Below, one piece after another: positions 2,713-19,738 of a DNA stretch of 20,845 bases; the first letter of the stretch is position 1, and each line of letters begins with the position of its first letter. Source of the stretch: a virus. The notes below the pieces were generated by a model. That model had not been told where the DNA came from and ran no database searches. It saw only the letters and a program-made list of their open reading frames with translations. The stretch covers positions 1 to 20,845 of IMG/VR virus record IMGVR_UViG_3300021364_001004. The stretch is one strand, 5' to 3'. The position numbers and the translations under genes are program-made.

Positions 2713-3303
2713 ATGTATCCCCTGATGTTGGCAGCATCTTTAGTCGCTGCGGCACCGTTTTTAATGACTGAGACTGAGGTAGTTGGTTCAGGAATTCCTG
2801 ATAACATCGTACCCATTGAGGTAGAACCATTTAATCCATCCTGGCAGTGTGAGGATTGCACACCCAACGAACAGTATGTCCTCGCACAACTCCAAGAACA
2901 CACCAAAATCTCTGATAGAAACGCCCTGGCAACGATTCTGGGGAACATCAAACAAGAATCAAACTTCATTCCTAACATTTGTGAGGGTGGTGCTAGAGTC
3001 TCTTATAGTGAGTGTACTCGCGGCGGTTATGGTCTCATCCAGTGGACCAGCTTAGGACGTTATAATAATCTAGGAAAGTTCTGTGAGAACTATGGATGTG
3101 ACCCTAGCACTCTAGAAGGACAGACTCGTTATATGATTAACGAATCTGTATTCCAACGCTATCTTCCTGAGTTTGAAGGACGTGGTAAGACAGTGGATCA
3201 GTATATGATTCCTGCATACTACTGGTTGGGATGGGGAATCAAAGGTAATCGTCAACTTTATGCATACGATTATCATAAAAAACTTTCTTACACTATGTCA
3301 TGA
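2713..3303 (+). CDS. Phage tail lysozyme-like protein with N-terminal signal or anchor
   Basis: Residues 1-18 are hydrophobic (MYPLMLAASLVAAAPF), a signal peptide or membrane anchor. Residues about 50-195 match the phage tail lysozyme-like (Phage_lysozyme2) pattern: TILGNIKQESNF (about 74-85, with E82 as the candidate catalytic acid), GGYGLIQWTSLGRY (104-117), and a C-terminal YYWLGWG segment. Several Cys (46, 49, 90, 101, 124, 129) suggest disulfides outside the cytoplasm. I chose the ATG at 2713 because AGGA lies 6-9 nt upstream. Longer in-frame starts at 2701 or the TTG at 2659 are possible, but the TTG falls inside the -35 box. It could help cell lysis or peptidoglycan penetration; which one cannot be decided here. 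Confidence 0.8.
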   Translation: MYPLMLAASLVAAAPFLMTETEVVGSGIPDNIVPIEVEPFNPSWQCEDCTPNEQYVLAQLQEHTKISDRNALATILGNIKQESNFIPNICEGGARVSYSECTRGGYGLIQWTSLGRYNNLGKFCENYGCDPSTLEGQTRYMINESVFQRYLPEFEGRGKTVDQYMIPAYYWLGWGIKGNRQLYAYDYHKKLSYTMS

Positions 3304-3521
3304 CACAAAACGACTGGCGCTATTCTGACGAACGTATGGACGTGAGAACACAAGGACTTAATATCCTTTTGAAGAAGTTTGGATCGGAGATCTGCTCTGA
3401 TGGATCTCCTCGTTACTCTAATCAAAGCATCTATGAATGCATTCATGATTGGGTATCTCAAGGAAACATAAGAACGGATGGCATTGTTGCTTACTATAAA
3501 GCATACTATGCGGACCAGTGA
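3300..3521 (+). CDS. Small hypothetical protein (73 aa)
   Basis: The ATG overlaps the stop of the lysozyme-like gene (ATGA), indicating coupled translation. The protein starts MTQNDWRYSDERMDVRTQGL and has a central helical region. Its C-terminal part (YECIHDWVSQGN, then DGIVAYYKAYYADQ) is rich in aromatic residues. No membrane segment or known motif. The overlap and the regular codon pattern make it a credible gene. Function unknown; its position suggests co-expression with the lysozyme-like protein. Confidence 0.7.
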   Translation: MTQNDWRYSDERMDVRTQGLNILLKKFGSEICSDGSPRYSNQSIYECIHDWVSQGNIRTDGIVAYYKAYYADQ

Positions 3522-3702
3522 TCAATTCAAGTTCGGAGGACTTGACAAAACCCCAGTCAATGTCTTAAGATTGTTGAGTGAACTTGAGGGATCATACCAA
3601 CTCCTCAAGTATATGGGTTTCCAAGAAGACATGGAAACTCTTGACAAAATAAAGAAGAAGTATTATACTATATACTTCAAACTTAAAAAGGGCACTGGGT
3701 AG
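3508..3702 (+). CDS. Small hypothetical protein (64 aa) ending inside tRNA-Tyr
   Basis: Start ATG at 3508 (MRTSDQFKFGGLDKTP), inside the 3' end of the previous gene. It is a basic, helical protein with LRLLSELEGSYQLLKYMG in the middle and a Lys/Tyr-rich end (KKKYYTIYFKLKKGTG). The longer frame opening at 3478 would overlap its neighbour by 44 nt and is less likely. The last Gly codon and the TAG stop (3697-3702) are also the first six bases of the tRNA-Tyr acceptor stem. A sigma70-like promoter for the tRNAs lies within this gene at 3641-3669. Function unknown. Confidence 0.65.
   Translation: MRTSDQFKFGGLDKTPVNVLRLLSELEGSYQLLKYMGFQEDMETLDKIKKKYYTIYFKLKKGTG
3641..3669 (+). promoter_or_regulatory. 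Sigma70-like promoter for the tRNA cluster
   Basis: TTGACA (3641-3646), 17 nt spacer, TATACT (3664-3669), inside the end of a coding gene and 27 nt before tRNA-Tyr. It could give the tRNAs their own transcription start near 3676. Confidence 0.6.
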
Positions 3703-3778
3703 GTGTCCGAGTGGTTAATGGAGGCGGACTGTAAATCCGCTGGCTCTGCCTACGGGGGTTCAAATCCCTCCCTGCCCA
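3697..3778 (+). tRNA. tRNA-Tyr (anticodon GTA)
   Basis: A type II tRNA with a long variable arm. The acceptor stem GGGTAGG pairs with CCTGCCC. The anticodon loop CTGTAAA sits on GCGGA/TCCGC. The T-arm has GGTTCAAATC. The discriminator is A3778 and a full CCA is not encoded. It overlaps the upstream gene's stop by 6 nt. Confidence 0.96.
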
Positions 3779-3782
3779 CCTT

Positions 3783-3856
3783 GACTCAGTAGCTCAGCTG
3801 GATAGAGCAACTGCCTTCTAAGCAGTCGGTCGTAGGTTCAAATCCTACCTGAGTCG
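3783..3856 (+). tRNA. tRNA-Arg (anticodon TCT)
   Basis: Acceptor stem GACTCAG/CTGAGTC, anticodon stem ACTGC/GCAGT with loop CTTCTAA, T-loop TTCAAAT, discriminator G. It would read AGA, a codon used often in these phage genes. It lies 4 nt after tRNA-Tyr. Confidence 0.96.
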
Positions 3857-3860
3857 CCTC

Positions 3861-3932
3861 GCCCCCGTAGCTCAGTGGTAGAGCAGGGCTTTTGTAAAGC
3901 TCAGGTCGCAAGTTCAAATCTTGTCAGGGGCT
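3861..3932 (+). tRNA. tRNA-Thr (anticodon TGT)
   Basis: Acceptor stem GCCCCCG/CAGGGGC with one C-A mismatch, anticodon stem GGGCT/AGCTC with loop TTTGTAA, T-arm GCAAG/CTTGT. It lies 4 nt after tRNA-Arg. It is directly followed by the structured segment 3933-4058. Confidence 0.93.
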
Positions 3933-4058
3933 TAGCGGGATGGCGACACCCGTGCTCACATCTCCGAGAGAAAAAAGAATCGGAAAACCAACCCATGTGA
4001 GAGAGGAGTGGGATCCTCCTTGGTGCCCCCTCTGCTGACGAGTAGAGGGTATTCTCCA
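3933..4058 (+). ncRNA. Candidate structured stable RNA inside the tRNA cluster
   Basis: No open frame of note, but several stems can be drawn. CGGG/CCCG (3936-3952). CTCACAT/ATGTGAG (3955-3961 with 3995-4001), enclosing CCGA/TCGG (3964-3983). AGGAG/CTCCT (4004-4020). A 9-bp stem CCCTCTGCT/AGTAGAGGG closed by a GACG loop (4028-4049), with one G-U pair. It is GC-richer than nearby genes and lies between tRNA-Thr and tRNA-Asn. T4 encodes two small stable RNAs of unknown role (C and D) in its tRNA cluster, so a similar RNA is plausible. Not recognised as a known family. Confidence 0.5.
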
Positions 4059-4080
4059 TTCGCTATTTGCAAATAGCGAA
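4059..4080 (+). repeat. Perfect 22-bp palindrome before tRNA-Asn
   Basis: TTCGCTATTTG followed at once by its exact reverse complement, ending 5 nt before tRNA-Asn. As RNA it would form a hairpin with a few unpaired bases at the tip. It could be a processing or pausing signal, or a dimer protein site. There is no T-tract, so it is not a standard terminator. Confidence 0.8.
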
Positions 4081-4085
4081 CATAT

Positions 4086-4157
4086 TCCCAAGTAGCTCAG
4101 CGGCAGAGCCGCCGACTGTTAATCGGCTGGTCGCAGGTTCAAATCCTGCCTTGGGAG
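4086..4157 (+). tRNA. tRNA-Asn (anticodon GTT)
   Basis: Acceptor stem TCCCAAG/CTTGGGA, anticodon stem CCGA/TCGG with loop CTGTTAA, T-arm GCAGG/CCTGC, discriminator G. It is flanked on both sides by perfect inverted repeats (4059-4080 and 4158-4176). Confidence 0.96.
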
Positions 4158-4176
4158 TTGCTAGATAGTCTAGCAA
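4158..4176 (+). repeat. Inverted repeat directly after tRNA-Asn
   Basis: TTGCTAGA, loop TAG, TCTAGCAA: a perfect 8-bp stem beginning at the base after the tRNA discriminator. There is no following T-tract. It could be a 3'-end processing signal for the tRNA transcript. Confidence 0.7.
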
Positions 4177-4194
4177 ACGTTGAACACTAATACT

Positions 4195-4650
4195 ATGATT
4201 TCTAGTCAGATACAATTTAGTAAAGAGCAGTTTCCTTTCATGAGTGTTATCACTTGGGATGATGCAATCAAAAAATTGTTTCATGACTATTCTATTGTAG
4301 ATGGTGTCCGAATTGTTTCCACTGGTGGAAACACTCCCCAATCTTATGTCTCTCATACCAGTTATCGTCCTGGTAGTATTGGTCTTGCATATGATGGTGT
4401 TCGTAAAAACTATTCTGTAAACAATTTACATGTTTACATGTCACTACTTCAGAATAGTCATACATTTGGTATGCACAATGATGATGTTGATGTTATGATT
4501 GTGCAGGCAATTGGATCAATGAGATATAAGTTTGATGAGGGAGAGGTTCTTATGAATCCTGGAGATGCTGTGTTTATTCCTAAAGGAGTGAATCACTGTC
4601 CAGTAGTCTTAGGACCAAGAGTTACTTTGAGTTTTGATTTTCTCGGGTGA
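4195..4650 (+). CDS. Cupin-fold protein, function unknown
   Basis: 151 residues from the ATG at 4195; a TTG five codons earlier is also in frame. The C-terminal third (MNPGDAVFIPKGVNHCPVVL) matches the second cupin motif, with PGD, a short spacer, then P..VNH. A first-motif-like region with a possible metal histidine is at FGMHNDDVDVMIVQAIG. This suggests a small beta-barrel that could bind a metal or a small ligand. It has no clear Shine-Dalgarno sequence. Its final Gly codon and TGA stop (4645-4650) are the first six bases of tRNA-Val. It sits beside a 2OG-Fe(II) oxygenase, another double-stranded beta-helix protein. Fold is fairly sure; activity is unknown. Confidence 0.7.
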   Translation: MISSQIQFSKEQFPFMSVITWDDAIKKLFHDYSIVDGVRIVSTGGNTPQSYVSHTSYRPGSIGLAYDGVRKNYSVNNLHVYMSLLQNSHTFGMHNDDVDVMIVQAIGSMRYKFDEGEVLMNPGDAVFIPKGVNHCPVVLGPRVTLSFDFLG

Positions 4651-4716
4651 TTAGCTCAGCGGTAGAGCATCTCGTTTACACCGAGGCGGTCGGCGGTTCA
4701 ATCCCGTCATCACCCA
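4645..4716 (+). tRNA. tRNA-Val (anticodon TAC)
   Basis: Acceptor stem GGGTGAT/ATCACCC, anticodon stem CTCG/CGAG with loop TTTACAC, T-loop TTCAATC, discriminator A. The first six bases are also the end of the cupin gene. Confidence 0.95.
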
Positions 4717-4733
4717 CTAGATAACTTACAATT

Positions 4734-5486
4734 ATGACTGAAGAAATTACCAGAGCAGAATTTTTTGACAACGATCCCCGAGCACATGAGATCGGGGAAG
4801 ATGATAAGATTAATGATTGGTTGGAGGGTAGTGTTCAACCAGTTTTTCCCACAAGAATTGGTAAGTTTCATGTCTCAGAAGAAAAATATTCTTCAATTCA
4901 CGATGATATTAAACCAAAAATATATTCTCATCTAGAGTATTTAAAGAAGAAAGGATTGATTCAGGACAAAGAATCTTATAATCTGTTTGATGCCAAGAAA
5001 GATGGGTGGACTAGTTTTTATGGTAGAAGTCTACTGGAAATACCAGAGTTCTATCCCATCATTAATTTGATTCATGAGACCATATATAGATCTATGAATC
5101 ATGCACATGGTTCTAATGATTATCTTATTGAAATGAACTCATGTTGGTTTACTGTCTATGAACAGAACCAATGTGTTCCATTTCACACTCACCCTGGATC
5201 TTATTTGAGTGGTGTTTATTATTTCCAAGCAGAGGGAGACTGTGGTGATATTGTATTCAAAGATCCTATTGGATGCATGAAGGATATGGTAATGAATAGT
5301 TCTCCGATGAAGGTAATGGACTCTTATGGAGTTCTTGCTATCAAACCTAGAACAGGAATGCTTCTTTTATTCCCATCTTGGTTACCACATGAAACTAGAC
5401 CAAACCCTTATGATGATAAAGATAGAATTATCTTTAGTTTTAATTTACACTTAGGAACAAAAACCAAACCCAAATTTAAGTACTGA
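4734..5486 (+). CDS. 2-oxoglutarate/Fe(II)-dependent oxygenase, phage-associated family
   Basis: 250 residues. The C-terminal half has the pattern of the phage-associated putative 2OG-Fe(II) oxygenase family (TIGR02466/PF13759 type). It reads HTHPGSYLSGVYYFQ (151-165, iron histidine within HTH), GDIVFKDP (171-178), then LLLFPSWLPHETRPN (210-224, distal iron ligand H219). It ends with DRIIFSFNL (230-238), where R231 would bind 2-oxoglutarate. The N-terminal 45 residues are acidic and not recognised. Such genes are frequent in T4-like cyanophages, but their substrates are unknown. Nucleic-acid or protein hydroxylation, or a link to host 2-oxoglutarate (nitrogen) sensing, have been suggested; the sequence does not decide. 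Confidence 0.88.
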   Translation: MTEEITRAEFFDNDPRAHEIGEDDKINDWLEGSVQPVFPTRIGKFHVSEEKYSSIHDDIKPKIYSHLEYLKKKGLIQDKESYNLFDAKKDGWTSFYGRSLLEIPEFYPIINLIHETIYRSMNHAHGSNDYLIEMNSCWFTVYEQNQCVPFHTHPGSYLSGVYYFQAEGDCGDIVFKDPIGCMKDMVMNSSPMKVMDSYGVLAIKPRTGMLLLFPSWLPHETRPNPYDDKDRIIFSFNLHLGTKTKPKFKY

Positions 5487-5487
5487 T

Positions 5488-5778
5488 ATGGATTCATTTA
5501 TTCCCGTAGACAAAGTAGAATCATATGTTGATTCTGCTAAAAACCTTGAAGATCTTCCTTTGTTGCAACTCATCAAGGATATGGAAGATAAGTATGGAGT
5601 TGATACACATATGGTGATTGAGTGTATGCCAATTGCTGGAAGAGAATCTGATGATCCTGCTGCAACAAAACTTGCTACTGAAGAAGATGTGGTATGGTAT
5701 GTTGAGTTTAGAGATGAGAAATATATGTTTGAGGACTTCTGGGAAATGAGATTCCACATGCTTAATAGTTTTGAATAA
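5488..5778 (+). CDS. Small acidic hypothetical protein (96 aa)
   Basis: Starts one base after the oxygenase stop (TGATATG), so it is very probably translated from the same mRNA. It is a strongly acidic protein with two helical parts: MDSFIPVDKVESYVDSAKNL at the start and LLQLIKDMEDKYGVD in the middle. The end is aromatic-rich (VWYVEFRDEKYMFEDFWEM). No Cys motifs, membrane segment or known domain. The coupling to the oxygenase hints at a shared role, but this is only positional evidence. Confidence 0.7.
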   Translation: MDSFIPVDKVESYVDSAKNLEDLPLLQLIKDMEDKYGVDTHMVIECMPIAGRESDDPAATKLATEEDVVWYVEFRDEKYMFEDFWEMRFHMLNSFE

Positions 5779-5781
5779 ATA

Positions 5782-6033
5782 ATGAAATCAGAAAAGATCA
5801 GAGAAGAGTTTAACGAAATCAAACTTGAACTTGCTTACATAAGAGGTATGATGACAAATGTTAATTATCAGATGCAAGAATTGCGGGAAGCAATTAGAAA
5901 GTCATCCAACAAAGATGAAGAGTTGCGGGTGCGAGAACTATACGAGCATCCGTGGTACAAGTATAAGCGGGAAGAACTTATCTCTAGTGGAAATTATTCA
6001 GAACCACAAAGAGACGATCTCTCCGACATTTAG
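5782..6033 (+). CDS. Hypothetical coiled-coil protein (83 aa), overlapped by another frame
   Basis: Starts 3 nt after the previous stop. The first half (about residues 1-48) looks like an amphipathic helix or coiled coil (KIREEFNEIKLELAYIRGM, then MQELREAIRKSSNKDEELR). The second half holds ELYEHPWYKYKREELISSGN. The ATG directly follows an AATAAATA sequence (5774-5781), which may be chance. Its last 176 nt (5858-6033) are also read in the +1-shifted frame by the Cys-motif protein starting at 5858. Both frames look protein-like, so at least part of one gene may be overprinted. If only one is real in the overlap, I favour the Cys-motif protein there. Confidence 0.6.
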   Translation: MKSEKIREEFNEIKLELAYIRGMMTNVNYQMQELREAIRKSSNKDEELRVRELYEHPWYKYKREELISSGNYSEPQRDDLSDI

Positions 6034-6106
6034 TAAGGAAGATCTTGCGTACCAAGAATCTCGTCGTCAGAGGACGGTACGCAAACTTGACTTTGAAGTC
6101 AGGTGA
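5858..6106 (+). CDS. Small putative zinc-finger protein (82 aa), overlapping frame
   Basis: Starts at ATG 5858 inside the preceding gene, in a different frame. It has a CxxC pair (C6, C9, in RCKNCGKQLESHP) and a second CxC (C23, C25, in KSCGCEN), which could bind one zinc. The basic C-terminus (ESRRQRTVRKLDFEVR) follows an LAYQE segment. From memory, a conserved small protein of T4-like cyanophages has this layout: Cys-rich start, 'TTIRG', then an 'EARRQRKVRKLDFE'-like end. That is why I trust this frame despite the overlap. It ends 4 nt before tRNA-Pro. Nucleic-acid binding is a guess from the basic tail and Cys motifs. Confidence 0.75.
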   Translation: MLIIRCKNCGKQLESHPTKMKSCGCENYTSIRGTSISGKNLSLVEIIQNHKETISPTFSKEDLAYQESRRQRTVRKLDFEVR

Positions 6107-6110
6107 ACCT

Positions 6111-6184
6111 CGGGCATTAGTTCAGTTTGGTAGAACGCTCGCTTTGGGAGCGAGAGGTCGTAGGTTCAAATCCTACATGCCCGA
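6111..6184 (+). tRNA. tRNA-Pro (anticodon TGG)
   Basis: Acceptor stem CGGGCAT/ATGCCCG, anticodon stem CTCGC/GCGAG with loop TTTGGGA, T-arm GTAGG/CCTAC, discriminator A. It is followed within 4 nt by a late-promoter box. Confidence 0.95.
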
Positions 6185-6187
6185 CTT

Positions 6188-6195
6188 TATAAATA
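6188..6195 (+). promoter_or_regulatory. Late-type promoter TATAAATA
   Basis: An exact match to the T4/cyanophage late -10 box TATAAATA. The next ATG (6205) is only 9 nt downstream, so the transcript would have almost no leader. It would drive the Phd-like gene and talC. Confidence 0.65.
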
Positions 6196-6204
6196 TCATC
6201 AATT

Positions 6205-6378
6205 ATGGAATATTATTCTGTGGATCACTGGCAAGAAAACTTTGATGAATTGTTTGAAAGAGTGGAGAATGGTGAGAGTATCGGCATCATTAGTGAAAAC
6301 AATGAAAAGTGTGTTATGATGCCTTATGATGATGAACTCATCAAACTATATACTGAACTGAACAACGAAGCGCAATGA
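6205..6378 (+). CDS. Phd/YefM antitoxin-like small protein (57 aa)
   Basis: Start ATG 6205, stop TGA 6376-6378. It reads MEYYSVDHWQENFDELFERV, then ENGESIGIISENNEKCVMMP. This follows the Phd/YefM N-terminal pattern: an 'ARxxFxELLDRVxxGE'-like helix, then a beta hairpin 'xxItxxgkxxavlmp', then a short helix (YDDELIKLYTEL). In toxin-antitoxin systems this fold binds DNA and dimerises. No toxin gene is adjacent: the next gene, overlapping as ATGA, is transaldolase. It may therefore be an orphan regulator, possibly controlling its own operon. The family link is by motif only. Confidence 0.75.
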   Translation: MEYYSVDHWQENFDELFERVENGESIGIISENNEKCVMMPYDDELIKLYTELNNEAQ

Positions 6379-7025
6379 AAATTTTCCTTGATACTGCTGA
6401 CTATGCTGCTATTGATGACCGATATGAGACTGGTTTGATTGATGGAATTACAACCAATCCAACTCTAGTGAGAAAATCGGGTTGTGATTATTTGGATTTC
6501 ATCAAAACCTTATCAGCTCACTTTTCTTTTGAAAGCATCTCCGCCGAAGTTGATGGAAACAATGCCGATGAGATGATTGATAATGCTCAAAAATATATTT
6601 CAATTGGTCCTGAAGTTACAATCAAACTCCCCCTTACTAAAGATGGTCTGATTGCATGTAAGATTCTTAGTGATGAAGGAGTTAAAACTAACGTTACTCT
6701 ATGCTTCAGTGCTGCTCAGGCAGTCATGGCAGCGAAGGCAGGTGCTACATACATCTCTCCATTCGTTGGTCGTATGAACGATAATTCTTTTAGTGGTGTT
6801 GAATTAGTCCGTGCTATTGGAGGACTGTATGCTCAACATCGTGTTGAAACTAAAGTCCTCGCTGCAAGTTTGCGTGATGTCCACCATGTGTCACGCTGCC
6901 TTCTCTATGGTGCTGATGTGGTCACACTTCCTGTCACAGTATTTGACAAGATGTATGACCATGTTCTCACCAGAGAAGGTTTGGATATCTTTGAAAAAGA
7001 TTTCCAAATTATCAACCAACAATAG
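6375..7025 (+). CDS. talC: Transaldolase, TalC/fructose-6-phosphate-aldolase type
   Basis: A pentose phosphate pathway enzyme that moves a three-carbon unit between sugar phosphates through a Schiff base. 216 residues is the usual length of the short TalC/FSA class. It shows MKIFLDTAD at the start, DGITTNPTL (23-31), VTIKLPLT with the Schiff-base lysine K84, NVTLCFSAAQA (106-116), and YISPFVGRMND (126-136). It is the form found in many cyanophages. It is co-translated with the Phd-like protein (ATGA) and lies downstream of an exact late-type promoter box. With gnd at the other end of the window, it supports NADPH and ribose supply for phage DNA synthesis. Confidence 0.96.
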   Translation: MKIFLDTADYAAIDDRYETGLIDGITTNPTLVRKSGCDYLDFIKTLSAHFSFESISAEVDGNNADEMIDNAQKYISIGPEVTIKLPLTKDGLIACKILSDEGVKTNVTLCFSAAQAVMAAKAGATYISPFVGRMNDNSFSGVELVRAIGGLYAQHRVETKVLAASLRDVHHVSRCLLYGADVVTLPVTVFDKMYDHVLTREGLDIFEKDFQIINQQ

Positions 7026-7042
7026 AGTAAACGTAGAGGAAA

Positions 7043-7285
7043 ATGAAAGAAAGACTTCTCCTTCGTAAATTTCGCGAAGACATTAGCATCCTTGATGATG
7101 CTGTTGACGGAGTAGTAAATTTGGAGGATGATTATCCCCATCTGTATAAAAAACTATACGAGTTTTATGATGTTAATGGTCTTCAGTTATTTGGAGATCC
7201 AGATGATGATTACGAAGTTGTCCTGACCGAACTAGAGAGGGACTTGACGAACCTCATGGACCCTGCTATGATTTCAGAGTTCTGA
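7043..7285 (+). CDS. Small acidic hypothetical protein (80 aa)
   Basis: The ATG at 7043 has GAGG about 7 nt upstream. The protein is helical and acidic: MKERLLLRKFREDISILDDA, then a central DYPHLYKKLYEFYDVNGLQL and a DPDDDYEVVLTELERDL tail. It follows talC by 17 nt, so it is probably in the same transcript. No motif or membrane segment. The good ribosome-binding site and the continuous packing support a real gene. I do not recognise the family. Confidence 0.7.
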   Translation: MKERLLLRKFREDISILDDAVDGVVNLEDDYPHLYKKLYEFYDVNGLQLFGDPDDDYEVVLTELERDLTNLMDPAMISEF

Positions 7286-7297
7286 TTCATTGTTGGT

Positions 7298-7534
7298 ATG
7301 ACCGAGGTTCTCCTTGAACGTGAAGGTTATCGTTTTGTTGACGTTGGTGTAATTGAGTTGAACGGTATGCGAGATTTTCGTTTACAGAAACAAGACTATT
7401 ACACCAATCGTTGGCGTGATATCTATTTGTTTGATAATCAAATGCAGTGTCTTCTTGCTATGGAAGACATTGAATATGCTAAATGGTTGGACCCCGACCG
7501 AGTTCCATGCTACGTTAAAGACAATGCCTCTTAA
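7298..7534 (+). CDS. Small hypothetical protein (78 aa)
   Basis: Starts 12 nt after the previous stop. It looks like a compact alpha/beta protein: MTEVLLEREGYRFVDVGVIE, then MRDFRLQKQDYYTNRWRDIY and LFDNQMQCLLAMEDIEYAKW. Several aromatic residues could form a small hydrophobic core. There are no Cys pairs and no transmembrane segment. It belongs to the run of small genes between talC and the TagD-like gene. No function can be assigned. Confidence 0.65.
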   Translation: MTEVLLEREGYRFVDVGVIELNGMRDFRLQKQDYYTNRWRDIYLFDNQMQCLLAMEDIEYAKWLDPDRVPCYVKDNAS

Positions 7535-7598
7535 TAACACTCCATTACAATGGAATAATAAAACAGAATTTGTTCCCGCTAATCCAAAGGAAAAAACA

Positions 7599-7865
7599 AT
7601 GTCCACATATGATTATCTTTCTAATGCTGAGACAGAGCTTCGTAATGCTCTGAAGACAGCAGTTGATCTTGATGGTGTTAATGAAATTCAAAAAGTTGTT
7701 AACACTCTTGCTGCAGTGAATCAACTCAAGAACGGTTACAAGTATAAGGTTGATGAACAAAAGAGTATGATCTCTGAATATGATGAGATCAAATTTGATT
7801 CTAGTACTTACTCTCCAGACACAATCAATTTTGGTGGAGATGAGAACACACTCATCTTAGGATGA
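7599..7865 (+). CDS. Small hypothetical helical protein (88 aa)
   Basis: I chose the ATG at 7599 (MSTYDYLSNAETELRNALKT) because AAAGGA lies about 9 nt upstream. An in-frame ATG at 7524 would add 25 residues and overlap the previous gene. Residues 1-60 are predicted helical (YLSNAETELRN, then GVNEIQKVVNTLAAVNQLKN). The tail is acidic and Ser/Thr-rich (FDSSTYSPDTINFGGDEN). Its stop overlaps the start of the TagD-like gene as ATGA. Virion-associated helical proteins of this size exist in cyanophages, but I cannot name this one. Confidence 0.65.
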   Translation: MSTYDYLSNAETELRNALKTAVDLDGVNEIQKVVNTLAAVNQLKNGYKYKVDEQKSMISEYDEIKFDSSTYSPDTINFGGDENTLILG

Positions 7866-8284
7866 ACATAATTACATTTGGTACATTTGATTTATTTCAC
7901 ATCGGTCATCTTAATATTCTAAAAAGATGCATTGAGTATGCCGATGGCAACAATCAAGTGACAGTTGGGGTATCTACTGATGAGTTTAATTATTCTAAGA
8001 AGAAAAGATATCCCATCTGCTGTCAACATGATAGACTAGAGATAGTCAATAACATCAAAGGTATTACAAATGTTTTTTACGAAGAATCTTTAGAGAAGAA
8101 ATTAGAATACTGCATACAATATAATGCTGATGTTCTAATCATGGGTGCTGATCATACTGGTAGATTTGATTATTTGAAACAACATAATATAGATGTAGTT
8201 TATTATCCCAGGACTAAAGGTATTTCTACCACAGAAATTGTAAAGAAAACCATAATCAATGTCACTCCTTTCCTCAAAATTTAA
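7862..8284 (+). CDS. Cytidylyltransferase-like (TagD/glycerol-3-phosphate cytidylyltransferase family)
   Basis: 140 residues with the hallmark nucleotidyltransferase motifs. GTFDLFHIGHLNILKR (7-22) contains the HIGH signature at 13-16, and RTKGISTTEI (117-126) is the second conserved motif that closes over the nucleotide. The length fits the TagD class, which joins CTP to an alcohol phosphate to make an activated CDP-polyol for surface polymers. It could act on another phosphate substrate, since this family varies. It overlaps the methyltransferase gene by 26 nt, which suggests the two act together. The actual substrate is unknown. Confidence 0.9.
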   Translation: MNIITFGTFDLFHIGHLNILKRCIEYADGNNQVTVGVSTDEFNYSKKKRYPICCQHDRLEIVNNIKGITNVFYEESLEKKLEYCIQYNADVLIMGADHTGRFDYLKQHNIDVVYYPRTKGISTTEIVKKTIINVTPFLKI

Positions 8285-9119
8285 AGAGATTACAGACAAT
8301 TGTCCAGTATCTGCAGAACCATCTTTGGTGATGCCTACATCTCAAATGTGTACGGAGAGTCAGTTCTACGAGCAAGTGTATAAAGATGCTTGCTTTGAGA
8401 TTAAAGAGCAACCCCGATCCCACAGGAAACAGTGGGAGTTTTGTTATATCATTCAGGTATTAAAACATTACGGTCTTCTTAGATCTCGTAGTTCTGGTAT
8501 TGGTTTTGGTGTGGGGGAAGAACCACTTCCCTCACTGTTTGCTAGTTATGGTTGTAAGGTTCTGGCAACTGATCTAGATGTAAGTGATGCTGCTAACAAA
8601 GGATGGGTCGCTACAGATCAACATCTCAGAACAAAAGAAGTTCTGAACAAAAGAGGAATCTGTGACGAAGAATCTTTTAATAAGTTAGTCAACATTGATT
8701 ATGTTGACATGAATAATATCCCAGATAATCTGGGTAAGTTTAACTTCACATGGAGTTCATGTGCTCTAGAACATCTTGGTAGTATTGACAAATCCCTTGA
8801 CTTCATAGTAAACTCTACGAAGTTACTCAAACCAGGAGGCATCGCTGTTCACACTACAGAATTAAATGTCTCTAATGATGTGCTAACTATTGATAACCAG
8901 AACACAGTTCTTTTGAGAATCAAAGATTTCAATAATCTTTCTAGGAAACTAGTTAATCATAAAGACATTGCTCTAAGTCCATTCAATTATTTTGCAGGGT
9001 ATCAACCACTAGATACTCACATTGATCTTCCTCCGTACTCTTCAGATAAACATTTGAAGATTGCTATGGCACAGTATGTAACCACATCAGTTGGTATCAT
9101 CGTTAGAAAATTATTCTGA
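8259..9119 (+). CDS. SAM-dependent methyltransferase-like protein (286 aa)
   Basis: A Rossmann-type class I methyltransferase is suggested by GIGFGVGEEPLPSLFASYGC (motif I region, about 80-100), then KVLATDLD (motif II acidic end). FTWSSCALEHLGSIDKSL is the motif IV-like region with 'CALEHL'. LLKPGGIAVHTTEL (motif V/VI region) is typical of Methyltransf_11-like families. The N-terminal 75 residues and the C-terminal 80 are not recognised. The ATG at 8259 lies inside the end of the TagD-like gene. Small-molecule, lipid or glycan methylation is more likely than DNA methylation, because the usual DNA-methylase catalytic motifs are not seen; this is inference. Confidence 0.8.
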   Translation: MSLLSSKFKEITDNCPVSAEPSLVMPTSQMCTESQFYEQVYKDACFEIKEQPRSHRKQWEFCYIIQVLKHYGLLRSRSSGIGFGVGEEPLPSLFASYGCKVLATDLDVSDAANKGWVATDQHLRTKEVLNKRGICDEESFNKLVNIDYVDMNNIPDNLGKFNFTWSSCALEHLGSIDKSLDFIVNSTKLLKPGGIAVHTTELNVSNDVLTIDNQNTVLLRIKDFNNLSRKLVNHKDIALSPFNYFAGYQPLDTHIDLPPYSSDKHLKIAMAQYVTTSVGIIVRKLF

Positions 9120-9354
9120 CGATCAGTCCCGAGATGACTCAAAACTCGCTCTGGTCGGGATGGGTTTAACGACCCCTCGGAGTTTCCAATTTCTCTAAAA
9201 AATTGGTGGTGCGGATGGAGCTATACTCCCGCCTGGTTTCTAAGTTCCAGTTAAAAATTTAGTGGTGGATCCAAAAGACCCCTTCCGTGTGGTTGTTTTC
9301 CTGTTTAGCAACTGAAATAATAAAACAGGTGGCGAGCCTGAGCACCCAAACATT
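9120..9354 (+). ncRNA. Candidate structured RNA or leader with repeated hairpins (235 nt gap)
   Basis: No credible frame. Several stems can be drawn. CCCGA/TCGGG (9128-9132 with 9155-9159), with CGAG/CTCG nested. CCAATTT/AAATTGG (9186-9206). GCG+GGAG/CTCC+CGC (9211-9232). CTAAGTT/AATTTAG with one G-U pair (9240-9262). CCTGTTT/AAACAGG (9300-9329). The three AT-rich hairpins are each followed directly by TGG, and the first two repeat units are alignable. It could be a free RNA or a long structured leader for the oxygenase gene at 9355. No promoter found. Confidence 0.45.
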
Positions 9355-9906
9355 ATGTCAAAGAATGGTATTGTAGTATCAGTTACATCTGGAATTGATA
9401 AATCAATTGCGAAAATTATTAAAACGCAATTGCAAGATCTTCCTCTTAAAAGTGCTACACTTGATGGAGAATATGTAGATGGTTCAGAAAGAAATTCTCA
9501 AGTTTCTTGGATTTCTAAAACTCATTGGGTTGCTGGACTGATGTCACATTATGTGAATCTTGTGAACGATCAATACTATCATTATGATCTTCGTTCCTGG
9601 GCACAGAATATACAATATACTGTATACAATGGTCAAGGAACTGGATACAAATGGCATAATGATTATCAAGAAGCCCTTGAGGGCGATAACCTGTGGAGAA
9701 AATTAACTATAAGTTTATGTCTGGATGATGAGTACGAAGGAGGAGAACTTCAAGTCTTTACTCCCAGTTGTGAAATGCATACTTATAAAATGAACTGCGG
9801 TGACATTGTAATTTTTTCATCTGATATGATGCATCGTGTGAGACCACTTAAATCTGGACTTAGAACATGTTTAGTTGGGTGGTATGCTGGTCCTAAATTC
9901 AAATAA
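9355..9906 (+). CDS. 2OG-Fe(II) oxygenase, prolyl-4-hydroxylase/PKHD-like
   Basis: 183 residues in the short hydroxylase class (P4Hc/PKHD type). The iron-binding HxD is at H101-D103 (GYKWHNDYQE) and the distal histidine is H160 (MMHRVRPLKSG). R170, ten residues later, should bind 2-oxoglutarate (GLRTCLVGWYAGP). Before the distal histidine, GGELQVFTPS and GDIVIFSSD follow the family pattern. It is unlike the oxygenase at 4734 in length and motif spacing, so the two are not recent duplicates. The substrate is unknown. The gene is preceded by a 235-nt structured gap and followed by a small terminator and tRNA-Gly. Confidence 0.9.
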   Translation: MSKNGIVVSVTSGIDKSIAKIIKTQLQDLPLKSATLDGEYVDGSERNSQVSWISKTHWVAGLMSHYVNLVNDQYYHYDLRSWAQNIQYTVYNGQGTGYKWHNDYQEALEGDNLWRKLTISLCLDDEYEGGELQVFTPSCEMHTYKMNCGDIVIFSSDMMHRVRPLKSGLRTCLVGWYAGPKFK

Positions 9907-9922
9907 CCCTCTCTGGGTTTTT
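9905..9922 (+). terminator. Small intrinsic terminator
   Basis: AACCC, loop TCTCT, GGGTT, then a run of T (9918-9922). The short 5-bp stem overlaps the oxygenase stop codon. It ends 3 nt before tRNA-Gly. Probably weak. Confidence 0.55.
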
Positions 9923-9925
9923 ACT

Positions 9926-9997
9926 GCGGATGTAGCTCAACGGTAGAGCTTCTGCCTTCCAAGCAGACGGTTGCGCGTTCAAATCGCGTCATCCGCT
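9926..9997 (+). tRNA. tRNA-Gly (anticodon TCC)
   Basis: Acceptor stem GCGGATG/CATCCGC, anticodon stem TCTGC/GCAGA with loop CTTCCAA, T-loop TTCAAAT, discriminator T. It stands alone, 3.7 kb from the other tRNAs. Confidence 0.95.
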
Positions 9998-18198: not shown

Positions 18199-18462
18199 AT
18201 GAACGACCGAGAATTTTCCGATCTGTCCATGACTAGAGCGGAGTGCCCGAAGTGTGGCGCTGTCTGGATTAATGGACAGCACTACTGGTCTGGCACTGGT
18301 GTCAAGGGAAACGATCTAGATCTTGCTGGTCTTGTGTGTAATAAACTCGGAAACCACCAGTGTATAAACCCCAGACGTGGAGACGACGGAGGGGATACCT
18401 GGGAAAAACGCATGGAAGAATTAGACGCACTAGACTCAGAAAATGGTCTGAATTGGGGTTGA
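18199..18462 (+). CDS. Putative zinc-ribbon-like protein upstream of psbA (87 aa)
   Basis: CPKCGAVWINGQHYWSGTG (about residues 16-34) gives a CxxC pair. A second Cys/His group, LVCNKLGNHQCINP (about 45-58), could complete a zinc site. The C-terminal part (GGDTWEKRMEELDAL) is acidic and helical. From memory this pattern is a conserved cyanophage protein often next to psbA. The start at 18199 has no clear ribosome-binding site. An in-frame ATG at 18230, in the 13-bp repeat, is an alternative that would still keep all Cys. The psbA -35 box overlaps its stop codon. Function unknown. Confidence 0.75.
   Translation: MNDREFSDLSMTRAECPKCGAVWINGQHYWSGTGVKGNDLDLAGLVCNKLGNHQCINPRRGDDGGDTWEKRMEELDALDSENGLNWG
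18226..18238 (+). repeat. 13-bp direct repeat, copy 2
   Basis: TCCATGACTAGAG, identical to 18157-18169. Here it lies in the coding start of the 87-residue gene and contains an in-frame ATG. Confidence 0.7.
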
Positions 18463-18488
18463 CAGATCCCAGAGTAGAGTGGTATTAT
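18459..18488 (+). promoter_or_regulatory. Sigma70-like promoter for psbA
   Basis: TTGACA (18459-18464), 18 nt spacer, TATTAT (18483-18488), with further AT-rich sequence after it. The predicted start near 18495 leaves a leader of about 160 nt before psbA. Confidence 0.8.
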
Positions 18489-18494
18489 ATATAC

Positions 18495-18655
18495 ATCAAC
18501 ACGTTAAGGAACGTAACGTTTCTTGAACCGTTGTAACACCCCAAACCGAGACCTATAGGGTGTATAAATCACGTCTCTCATATCCTGTCTAAGGGTGACA
18601 GGAAATAGTAACTCCACCATTTCCCTGATGGTCTTACTTTTTTAGTTCAAAACAA
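18495..18655 (+). promoter_or_regulatory. Structured psbA leader (PhotoRC-like), with H-type pseudoknot
   Basis: A long untranslated leader. ACACCC (18536-18541) pairs with GGGTGT (18558-18563), while GAGAC (18548-18552) in its loop pairs with GTCTC (18573-18577). This is the layout of an H-type pseudoknot. A hairpin CCTGTC/GACAGG follows at 18584-18602. Published comparative work describes PhotoRC-I and PhotoRC-II RNA motifs upstream of psbA, the second including cyanophages; this leader is a natural candidate. There is no Shine-Dalgarno before the psbA ATG, so translation control by this RNA is plausible. The exact family match was not tested. Confidence 0.65.
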
Positions 18656-19738
18656 ATGGCAAACTCTACTCTCGTCCAACAACAAGGACAATCTACCTGG
18701 GACAATTTTTGTGACTGGGTAACTTCAACTAACAATCGTCTGTATGTCGGTTGGTTCGGAACTCTTATGATTCCTACCCTCCTCGCTGCAACGGTCTGTT
18801 TTATCGTAGCGTTCATCGCTGCTCCTCCTGTTGACATTGACGGTATTCGTGAACCCGTCGCTGGTTCACTCATGTATGGCAACAACATCATCTCTGGTGC
18901 TGTCGTTCCCTCTTCAAACGCAATCGGACTTCACTTCTATCCCATCTGGGAAGCTGCTTCGCTGGATGAATGGCTTTACAACGGTGGTCCTTACCAGCTC
19001 GTAGTCTTCCACTTCCTCATTGGCGTCTTCTGTTACATGGGACGTGAATGGGAACTGTCCTATCGTCTGGGTATGCGCCCATGGATCTGTGTTGCTTACT
19101 CCGCTCCCGTCGCTGCCGCCTCGGCAGTCTTCCTCGTCTATCCTTTCGGACAAGGTTCTTTTAGTGATGGTATGCCTCTTGGCATCTCTGGTACGTTCAA
19201 TTACATGCTGGTGTTCCAAGCAGAACATAACATTCTTATGCATCCTTTCCACATGCTCGGCGTTGCTGGGGTATTCGGTGGATCTCTGTTCTCTGCTATG
19301 CACGGAAGTCTGGTTACTTCTTCTCTCGTCCGTGAGACTACTGAAACTGAGTCTCAAAACTATGGTTACAAGTTTGGTCAAGAAGAAGAGACCTACAACA
19401 TCGTCGCTGCACACGGTTACTTCGGTCGTCTGATCTTCCAGTACGCATCGTTTAACAACTCACGTTCGCTGCACTTCTTCCTCGCAGCATGGCCTGTCGT
19501 TGGTATCTGGTTCACTGCTCTTGGTGTTAGCACCATGGCATTCAACCTGAATGGTTTCAACTTCAACCAGTCCATCGTTGAGTCGCAAGGTAAAGTGATC
19601 AACACTTGGGCAGATGTTCTCAACCGCGCTGGTCTTGGCATGGAAGTCATGCATGAGCGTAACGCTCACAACTTCCCCCTGGATCTCGCTGCCGCTGAGT
19701 CCACTCCTGTTGCCCTCACAGCACCTTCTATCGGTTGA
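18656..19738 (+). CDS. psbA: Photosystem II reaction centre protein D1
   Basis: The core D1 subunit, binding the special-pair chlorophyll, pheophytin, QB and the manganese cluster in the thylakoid membrane. All 360 residues are present, with numbering here one above the usual. TyrZ is Y162 (VYPFGQG), the Mn ligand D171 (SFSDGMPLG), and the P680 ligand H199 (PFHMLGVAG). The QB-side region is [20 protein letters not shown]. Residue 131 (canonical 130) is Glu, the high-light D1 type. The C-terminal tail after LDLA would be removed by CtpA. Base composition and codon use are more GC-rich than neighbouring genes, as expected for a gene taken from the host and still exchanging with it. It is single, intact and intron-free. 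Confidence 0.98.

Follow-up and report, generated by a model that had tools for sequence, protein, structure and literature searches.

A covarying H-type pseudoknot and its neighbouring hairpins in the PhotoRC-II leader of a phage psbA gene

The window (i.e., the whole stretch of DNA analysed, 20,845 nucleotides, positions 1 to 20,845 of the IMG/VR virus record IMGVR_UViG_3300021364_001004) comes from an ocean virus and carries psbA, which encodes the D1 protein of photosystem II. It is through psbA that phages sustain photosynthesis in the picocyanobacteria they infect. Elsewhere in the window, seven tRNA genes (Tyr, Arg, Thr, Asn, Val, Pro and Gly) are located in 3697–9997, interspersed with small ORFs and auxiliary genes such as transaldolase (6375–7025). 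A second structured element, the wcaG RNA (RF01761, 84.8 bits), lies at 9178–9276 on the plus strand, about 80 bases before an ORF (9355–9906) matching 2OG-Fe(II) oxygenase families. In addition, the ORF at 1570–2118, on the strand opposite to psbA, contains an alternative oxidase domain (PF01786, 1.8e-10) and is possibly a plastoquinol terminal oxidase. The features of psbA and its leader are collected in Table 1.

Table 1. Positions of the psbA gene, its promoter and the elements of its leader in the window.
Feature	Position	Strand	Evidence
Sigma-70 type promoter, early-type (TTGACA-N18-TATTAT)	18459–18488	+	motif; kept in relatives
Late-type box TATATATA, 7/8 to TATAAATA	18486–18493	+	overlaps early-type promoter
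P0, 5′-terminal hairpin (18504–18513 with 18517–18526, plus 18497–18500 with 18530–18533)	18497–18533	+	folding vs shuffles
Rfam PhotoRC-II (RF01717) match extent	18525–18616	+	cmscan
P1, stem 1 of H-type pseudoknot (ACACCC 18536–18541 with GGGTGT 18558–18563)	18536–18563	+	RF01717 match, arm-swap test
Pseudoknot stem 2 (GAGAC 18548–18552 with GUCUC, in DNA GTCTC, 18573–18577)	18548–18577	+	covariation
P3 hairpin (18583–18589 with 18597–18603), loop UAAGGGU	18583–18603	+	RF01717 match, arm-swap test
P4 hairpin (P4b 18616–18621 with 18627–18632, loop UCCCU; P4a 18607–18611 with 18634–18638)	18607–18638	+	arm-swap test
Unstructured, G-poor start region without Shine-Dalgarno	18639–18655	+	motif search, base composition
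psbA, photosystem II D1 protein	18656–19738	+	360 aa, phrog_182, E 2e-202

The promoter arrangement in front of the leader is kept in the relatives: about 70 of the 79 related leaders have TTGAC-N17/18-TANNNT located 31–77 bases upstream of an invariant ACC, and AAATA, a late-type box, usually comes next after the promoter. It has been reported that cyanomyovirus psbA genes share the same −35, −10 and gp55 sites, that is, a dual early/late promoter (PMC5931967). Transcription is expected from these motifs to start near 18495, so that the whole leader would be contained in the transcript. The initial annotation had considered a second, late start at TATAAATC (18563–18570), which is located in the pseudoknot at the end of P1, and from which a leader lacking the pseudoknot could arise. 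This idea falls, since just 15 of the 79 relatives have TATAAAT at the site and not one has the full late box TATAAATA; the early-type promoter and the late-type box lie upstream, within 18459–18493, and judging from the relatives TATAAATC is an accident of the window sequence only.

The leader itself was searched with cmscan against Rfam 15, which gave a match to PhotoRC-II (RF01717) scoring 78.7 bits, where the cut-off is 39 (E 1.8e-12), and spanning the full model (1–96) upstream of the phage psbA, with the gene a short way 3′ of the element. A PhotoRC RNA had been suspected before psbA and a covariance-model search recommended, and the score above the gathering cut-off confirms the suspicion. 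Both hairpins of the published PhotoRC-II model, P1 and P3, are present, and the leader has close matches in 301 records of Synechococcus, Prochlorococcus and other cyanophages. The window leader is PhotoRC-II in front of a cyanophage psbA gene, with hardly any room for doubt; since the match is strong, the family to which it belongs was already known. In the RF01717 consensus as printed by cmscan only P1 and P3 are paired, and stem 2 and P4 are left without pairs; pseudoknots are beyond what a covariance model can represent. PhotoRC-II was first described in 2010 by Weinberg and colleagues, who graded it as 'certainly' an RNA, 'probably' cis-regulatory and 'probably not' a riboswitch (PMC2864571), and it has since been annotated in the cyanophage literature (PMC9602691). 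It is also among the families with more covariation (extra pairs) than the database structure holds, and its Rfam and ZWD structures differ (PMC7657543). Therefore, the pseudoknot may already be drawn in another structure, and novelty is not claimed for it.

For the comparison, 83 distinct phage psbA leaders with the core were gathered from four psbA-protein scans of viral contigs together with one phage-like contig from the genome collection. The leaders were anchored at ACC 5′ of the first strand and at T.ATA and GGG 3′ of the second strand; these anchors do not demand pairing of the second stem, although one rule for choosing the ACC used the neighbouring letters AG. The column tests on the pseudoknot were made on a 45-sequence alignment with 42 distinct rows. 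Because MAFFT left the 5′ arm of P1 unaligned, P1, P3 and P4 were tested not by columns but by arm swaps between leaders.

The interleaving of ACACCC/GGGTGT and GAGAC/GTCTC had been read from the window as an H-type pseudoknot, and this reading is correct to the base: each string is present once in the window sequence, in the claimed order and place. Stem 2 is formed in all but two of the 83 distinct leaders. Among the 82 parsed leaders there are eight Watson-Crick versions of it (GAGAC/GTCTC, AAGAC/GTCTT, AGGAC/GTCCT, GAGAT/ATCTC, GGGGC/GCCCC, GAGGC/GCCTC, GGGAT/ATCCC and GGGAC/GTCCC), and the stem is fully paired in 78 of the 82, against at most 52 in 20000 shuffles; of the four misfits, three (L004, L048 and L067) were parsing slips, which were put right by eye. 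This leaves as true exceptions L035, with four of the five pairs, and L043, in which the core is replaced. In the 42 distinct rows, 99.5% of the pseudoknot cells pair (88.1% in shuffles) and 32 cells are changed on both sides (7.8 in shuffles, with none of 500 shuffles as high). Changes on both sides occur in four of the five stem 2 pairs and one-sided changes in none, and when the partner is slid by 1–3 columns the pairing falls to 33–69%. On the psbA tree the stem 2 type changes at least 16 times, a rough count, as the method was quick and leaders may recombine away from the psbA gene. G-U pairs, which make up 11–12% in P3 and P4b, are absent from stem 2. As for P1, its own arms score 16.6 against 13.4 when swapped (permutation maximum 14.7), in a statistic that, here as for P3 and P4 below, ignores the relatedness of the leaders. 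That is to say, two interleaved stems are found with compensatory changes backing both, where the initial annotation had named a lack of covariation among the findings that would speak against its reading. The H-type pseudoknot in the PhotoRC-II leader is, on this comparative evidence, very probably real and well supported.

Outside the known pairs there are also nearly invariant bases, namely the ACC before stem 2, the T.ATA after it and the GGG in P3. The native fold comes first in the energy model only when the pseudoknot energy is added (−37.2 vs −38.0 kcal/mol). The favourite of RNAfold for the window leader, in which stem 2 and P1 pair with P4 instead, was rejected, as its own pairs score below permuted ones.

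The pseudoknot is flanked by hairpins on both sides. P0 comes directly after the expected transcript start, 5′ of the pseudoknot, and the folding of this region beats shuffles of the same sequence in 71 of 80 relatives. On the other side, the 6-bp hairpin proposed to follow the pseudoknot corresponds to P3 (CCTGTC 18584–18589 with GACAGG 18597–18602), which one more U-A pair extends to 7 bp, and which the arm-swap test upholds (own 19.7, swapped 11.1, permutation maximum 12.2); its loop contains AGGG nearly always and GGG always. P4, ending 17 bases 5′ of the psbA ATG, is without base pairs in the Rfam model, and P4b lies just 3′ of the model's paired part. P4b has 29 distinct stems and scores 12.3 with its own arms against 8.1 with swapped ones (maximum 9.2), while P4a is weaker, yet above every permutation (9.45 vs 8.61, maximum 9.17). 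By these tests, P4 is a further conserved, covarying hairpin near the start codon, with CC, nearly always CCC, in its loop. The AGGG of the P3 loop and the CCC of the P4 loop are complementary in nearly all leaders; a possible kissing interaction between them is without covariation, the own pairs being no better than swapped ones (10.78 vs 10.85).

Between P4b and the psbA start there are 18–25 bases with 3% G in the 74 related leaders examined, and most of the start region is free of pairs in the fold of the window leader. As had been noted at the outset, the psbA ATG at 18656 is not preceded by a Shine-Dalgarno-like motif, a trait shared with all 74 of these leaders. Since 11 of the 14 window ORFs checked likewise have no Shine-Dalgarno, its absence before psbA is ordinary here. 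A search of the plus strand of the leader for an intrinsic terminator was also negative. From its sequence, the leader is predicted to work neither by a transcription terminator nor by Shine-Dalgarno masking.

Where PhotoRC-II is found (13 of the 16 records searched), it is present as a single copy per phage contig and is sited at psbA only. The same tool found it in none of the 251 host-family genomes, in 32 of which PhotoRC-I (RF01716) exceeded its own cut-off. PhotoRC-I, found for example in the host Synechococcus WH7803, is also a cis element just upstream of psbA with two hairpins, but it has 44 positions and no pseudoknot; descent of PhotoRC-II from it was rejected, as the one host match aligned shows no resemblance. 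The sole PhotoRC-II match among host-type contigs is L324 (NHGE01000071.1), from a MAG labelled Euryarchaeota archaeon TMED129; it has a phage-type psbA, the promoter and PhotoRC-II, and it is probably a misbinned contig of a cyanophage. Of the 62 psbA leaders that have their own promoter, 57 contain the element, in a count that leaves many loci unclassified because the PsbA motif used is narrow; in leaders with neither promoter nor element, psbA is usually right behind another ORF.

The element is present in the cultured phages Syn1, Syn9, P-HM2 and P-SSM2. In the Prochlorococcus phage P-SSM4 (L367), promoter, P0 and pseudoknot are intact, P3 and P4 are gone, 36 bases separate stem 2 from the ATG, and the PhotoRC-II score is just below the cut-off. 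The psbA leader of the Synechococcus phage S-PM2 (L366) has promoter and P0 only. It differs from the window in having no pseudoknot, P3 or P4, and in that its psbA carries a group I intron (RF00028); the hairpin described in the S-PM2d psbA leader (a 36-bp inverted repeat, PMC5931967) matches P0 in position and sequence style. In the psbA leader of the podovirus P-SSP7, none of the elements was found. Among the other variants, L043 retains promoter, P3 and P4 with unrelated sequence in place of the pseudoknot core, and L063, from a divergent GC-rich phage, has a leader with a GGGGC/GCCCC pseudoknot and P3 that goes unrecognised by the Rfam model; the psbA region of L063 also holds a group I intron match. 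In L031, the psbA match (3001–4526) is 1526 bases long against the usual ~1080, with an insertion that has no Rfam intron match.

By comparison, the fold therefore consists of P0, the H-type pseudoknot, P3, P4, a short G-poor, A/U-rich stretch and the AUG in turn. As for what it does, a leader of ~160 untranslated bases would be transcribed from psbA's own promoter; its compact, structured 5′ part would protect the message from decay and keep it from pairing with the start region, and P4 would delimit an open landing site that has no Shine-Dalgarno, the outcome being strong D1 synthesis during infection. To this reading, in which the leader stabilises the message and shapes Shine-Dalgarno-free initiation, we give an even chance. 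It has been proposed that structured leaders influence psbA mRNA stability (PMC5931967), and the natural deletions, with P-SSM4 lacking P3 and P4 and S-PM2 keeping promoter and P0 only, were counted in its favour. On the other side, the near-invariant unpaired bases exceed the needs of a mere stabiliser, and since psbA of S-PM2 is expressed without PhotoRC-II, the element is dispensable.

That the leader is only a DNA-level feature or promoter remnant with an incidental RNA fold is highly improbable: it overlaps conserved promoter motifs (PMC5931967), and the 164-base window leader, taken by itself, has only a slight folding advantage over shuffles (z −1.83), but the compensatory changes in the pseudoknot and the swap tests of P1, P3 and P4b require base pairing, and all the covarying stems sit 3′ of the predicted transcription start. 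In addition, the pseudoknot may be read by some protein or small molecule, because stem 2 is strictly Watson-Crick and the unpaired bases are invariant. If it were an aptamer for a metabolite of the photosynthetic state, the leader would be a riboswitch or a redox or light switch controlling psbA translation. An H-type pseudoknot with such residues, in front of a light-related gene, fits this, and pseudoknotted switches such as the glutamine riboswitch are known in cyanophages (PMC9602691, PMC7657543). However, an expression platform was not found: the leader has neither a terminator nor a Shine-Dalgarno that could be masked, and the alternative pairing suggested by folding is not conserved, so that a classical switch would have no output. 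Under 'switch?', the discoverers entered probably not (PMC2864571). Moreover, psbA is reported as the only phage gene with a light-dependent expression difference in S-PM2d, responding to high light (PMC5931967), whereas S-PM2 has no PhotoRC-II; as far as the light data of the derivative S-PM2d can be set beside the sequence of the parent record S-PM2, the light response of psbA transcripts needs no PhotoRC-II, and the intron may give S-PM2 another route to it. The light or redox switch is thus somewhat disfavoured, and we consider it unlikely.

A similarly low probability is given to a protein operator, in which a phage or host RNA-binding protein would recognise the pseudoknot and repress or protect the psbA mRNA, like T4 gp32. 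In T4-type phages, a pseudoknot in the leader with an unstructured start region behind it is known to serve as a translational operator (PMC535899); the minimal leader of P-SSM4 shares this layout, with the pseudoknot and then the 36 bases to the ATG, and the invariance of the unpaired bases is in keeping with it. The T4 gene 32 operator, an H-type pseudoknot upstream of an A/U-rich start, would thus be the nearest precedent in a T4-type phage for reading by a protein or ligand (PMC535899), by analogy. It differs in gene and sequence, and PhotoRC-II has no known binding protein; in most leaders P3 and P4 separate the pseudoknot from the start, and in the records searched the element is found only at psbA, whereas gp32 regulates its own gene. 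Stated more generally, it is doubtful, though worth considering, that a phage-specific regulator, whether a ligand aptamer or a protein operator, has its recognition core in the pseudoknot and tunes D1 synthesis to the state of the infected cell. If so, binding would take place at stem 2 and the invariant bases of the loops, and P3 with its GGG loop and P4 with its CC(C) loop would form an output device gating the Shine-Dalgarno-free start.

Returning to the stabilising, initiation-shaping leader, the evidence suggests a role in keeping the message and its translation steady, not one as a light switch, and light-responsive psbA expression need not stem from PhotoRC-II. The phage psbA leader has been an RNA with a name but without an explanation for 15 years; with a covarying pseudoknot, P4 and natural deletions in cultured phages, its function becomes directly testable in laboratory strains.
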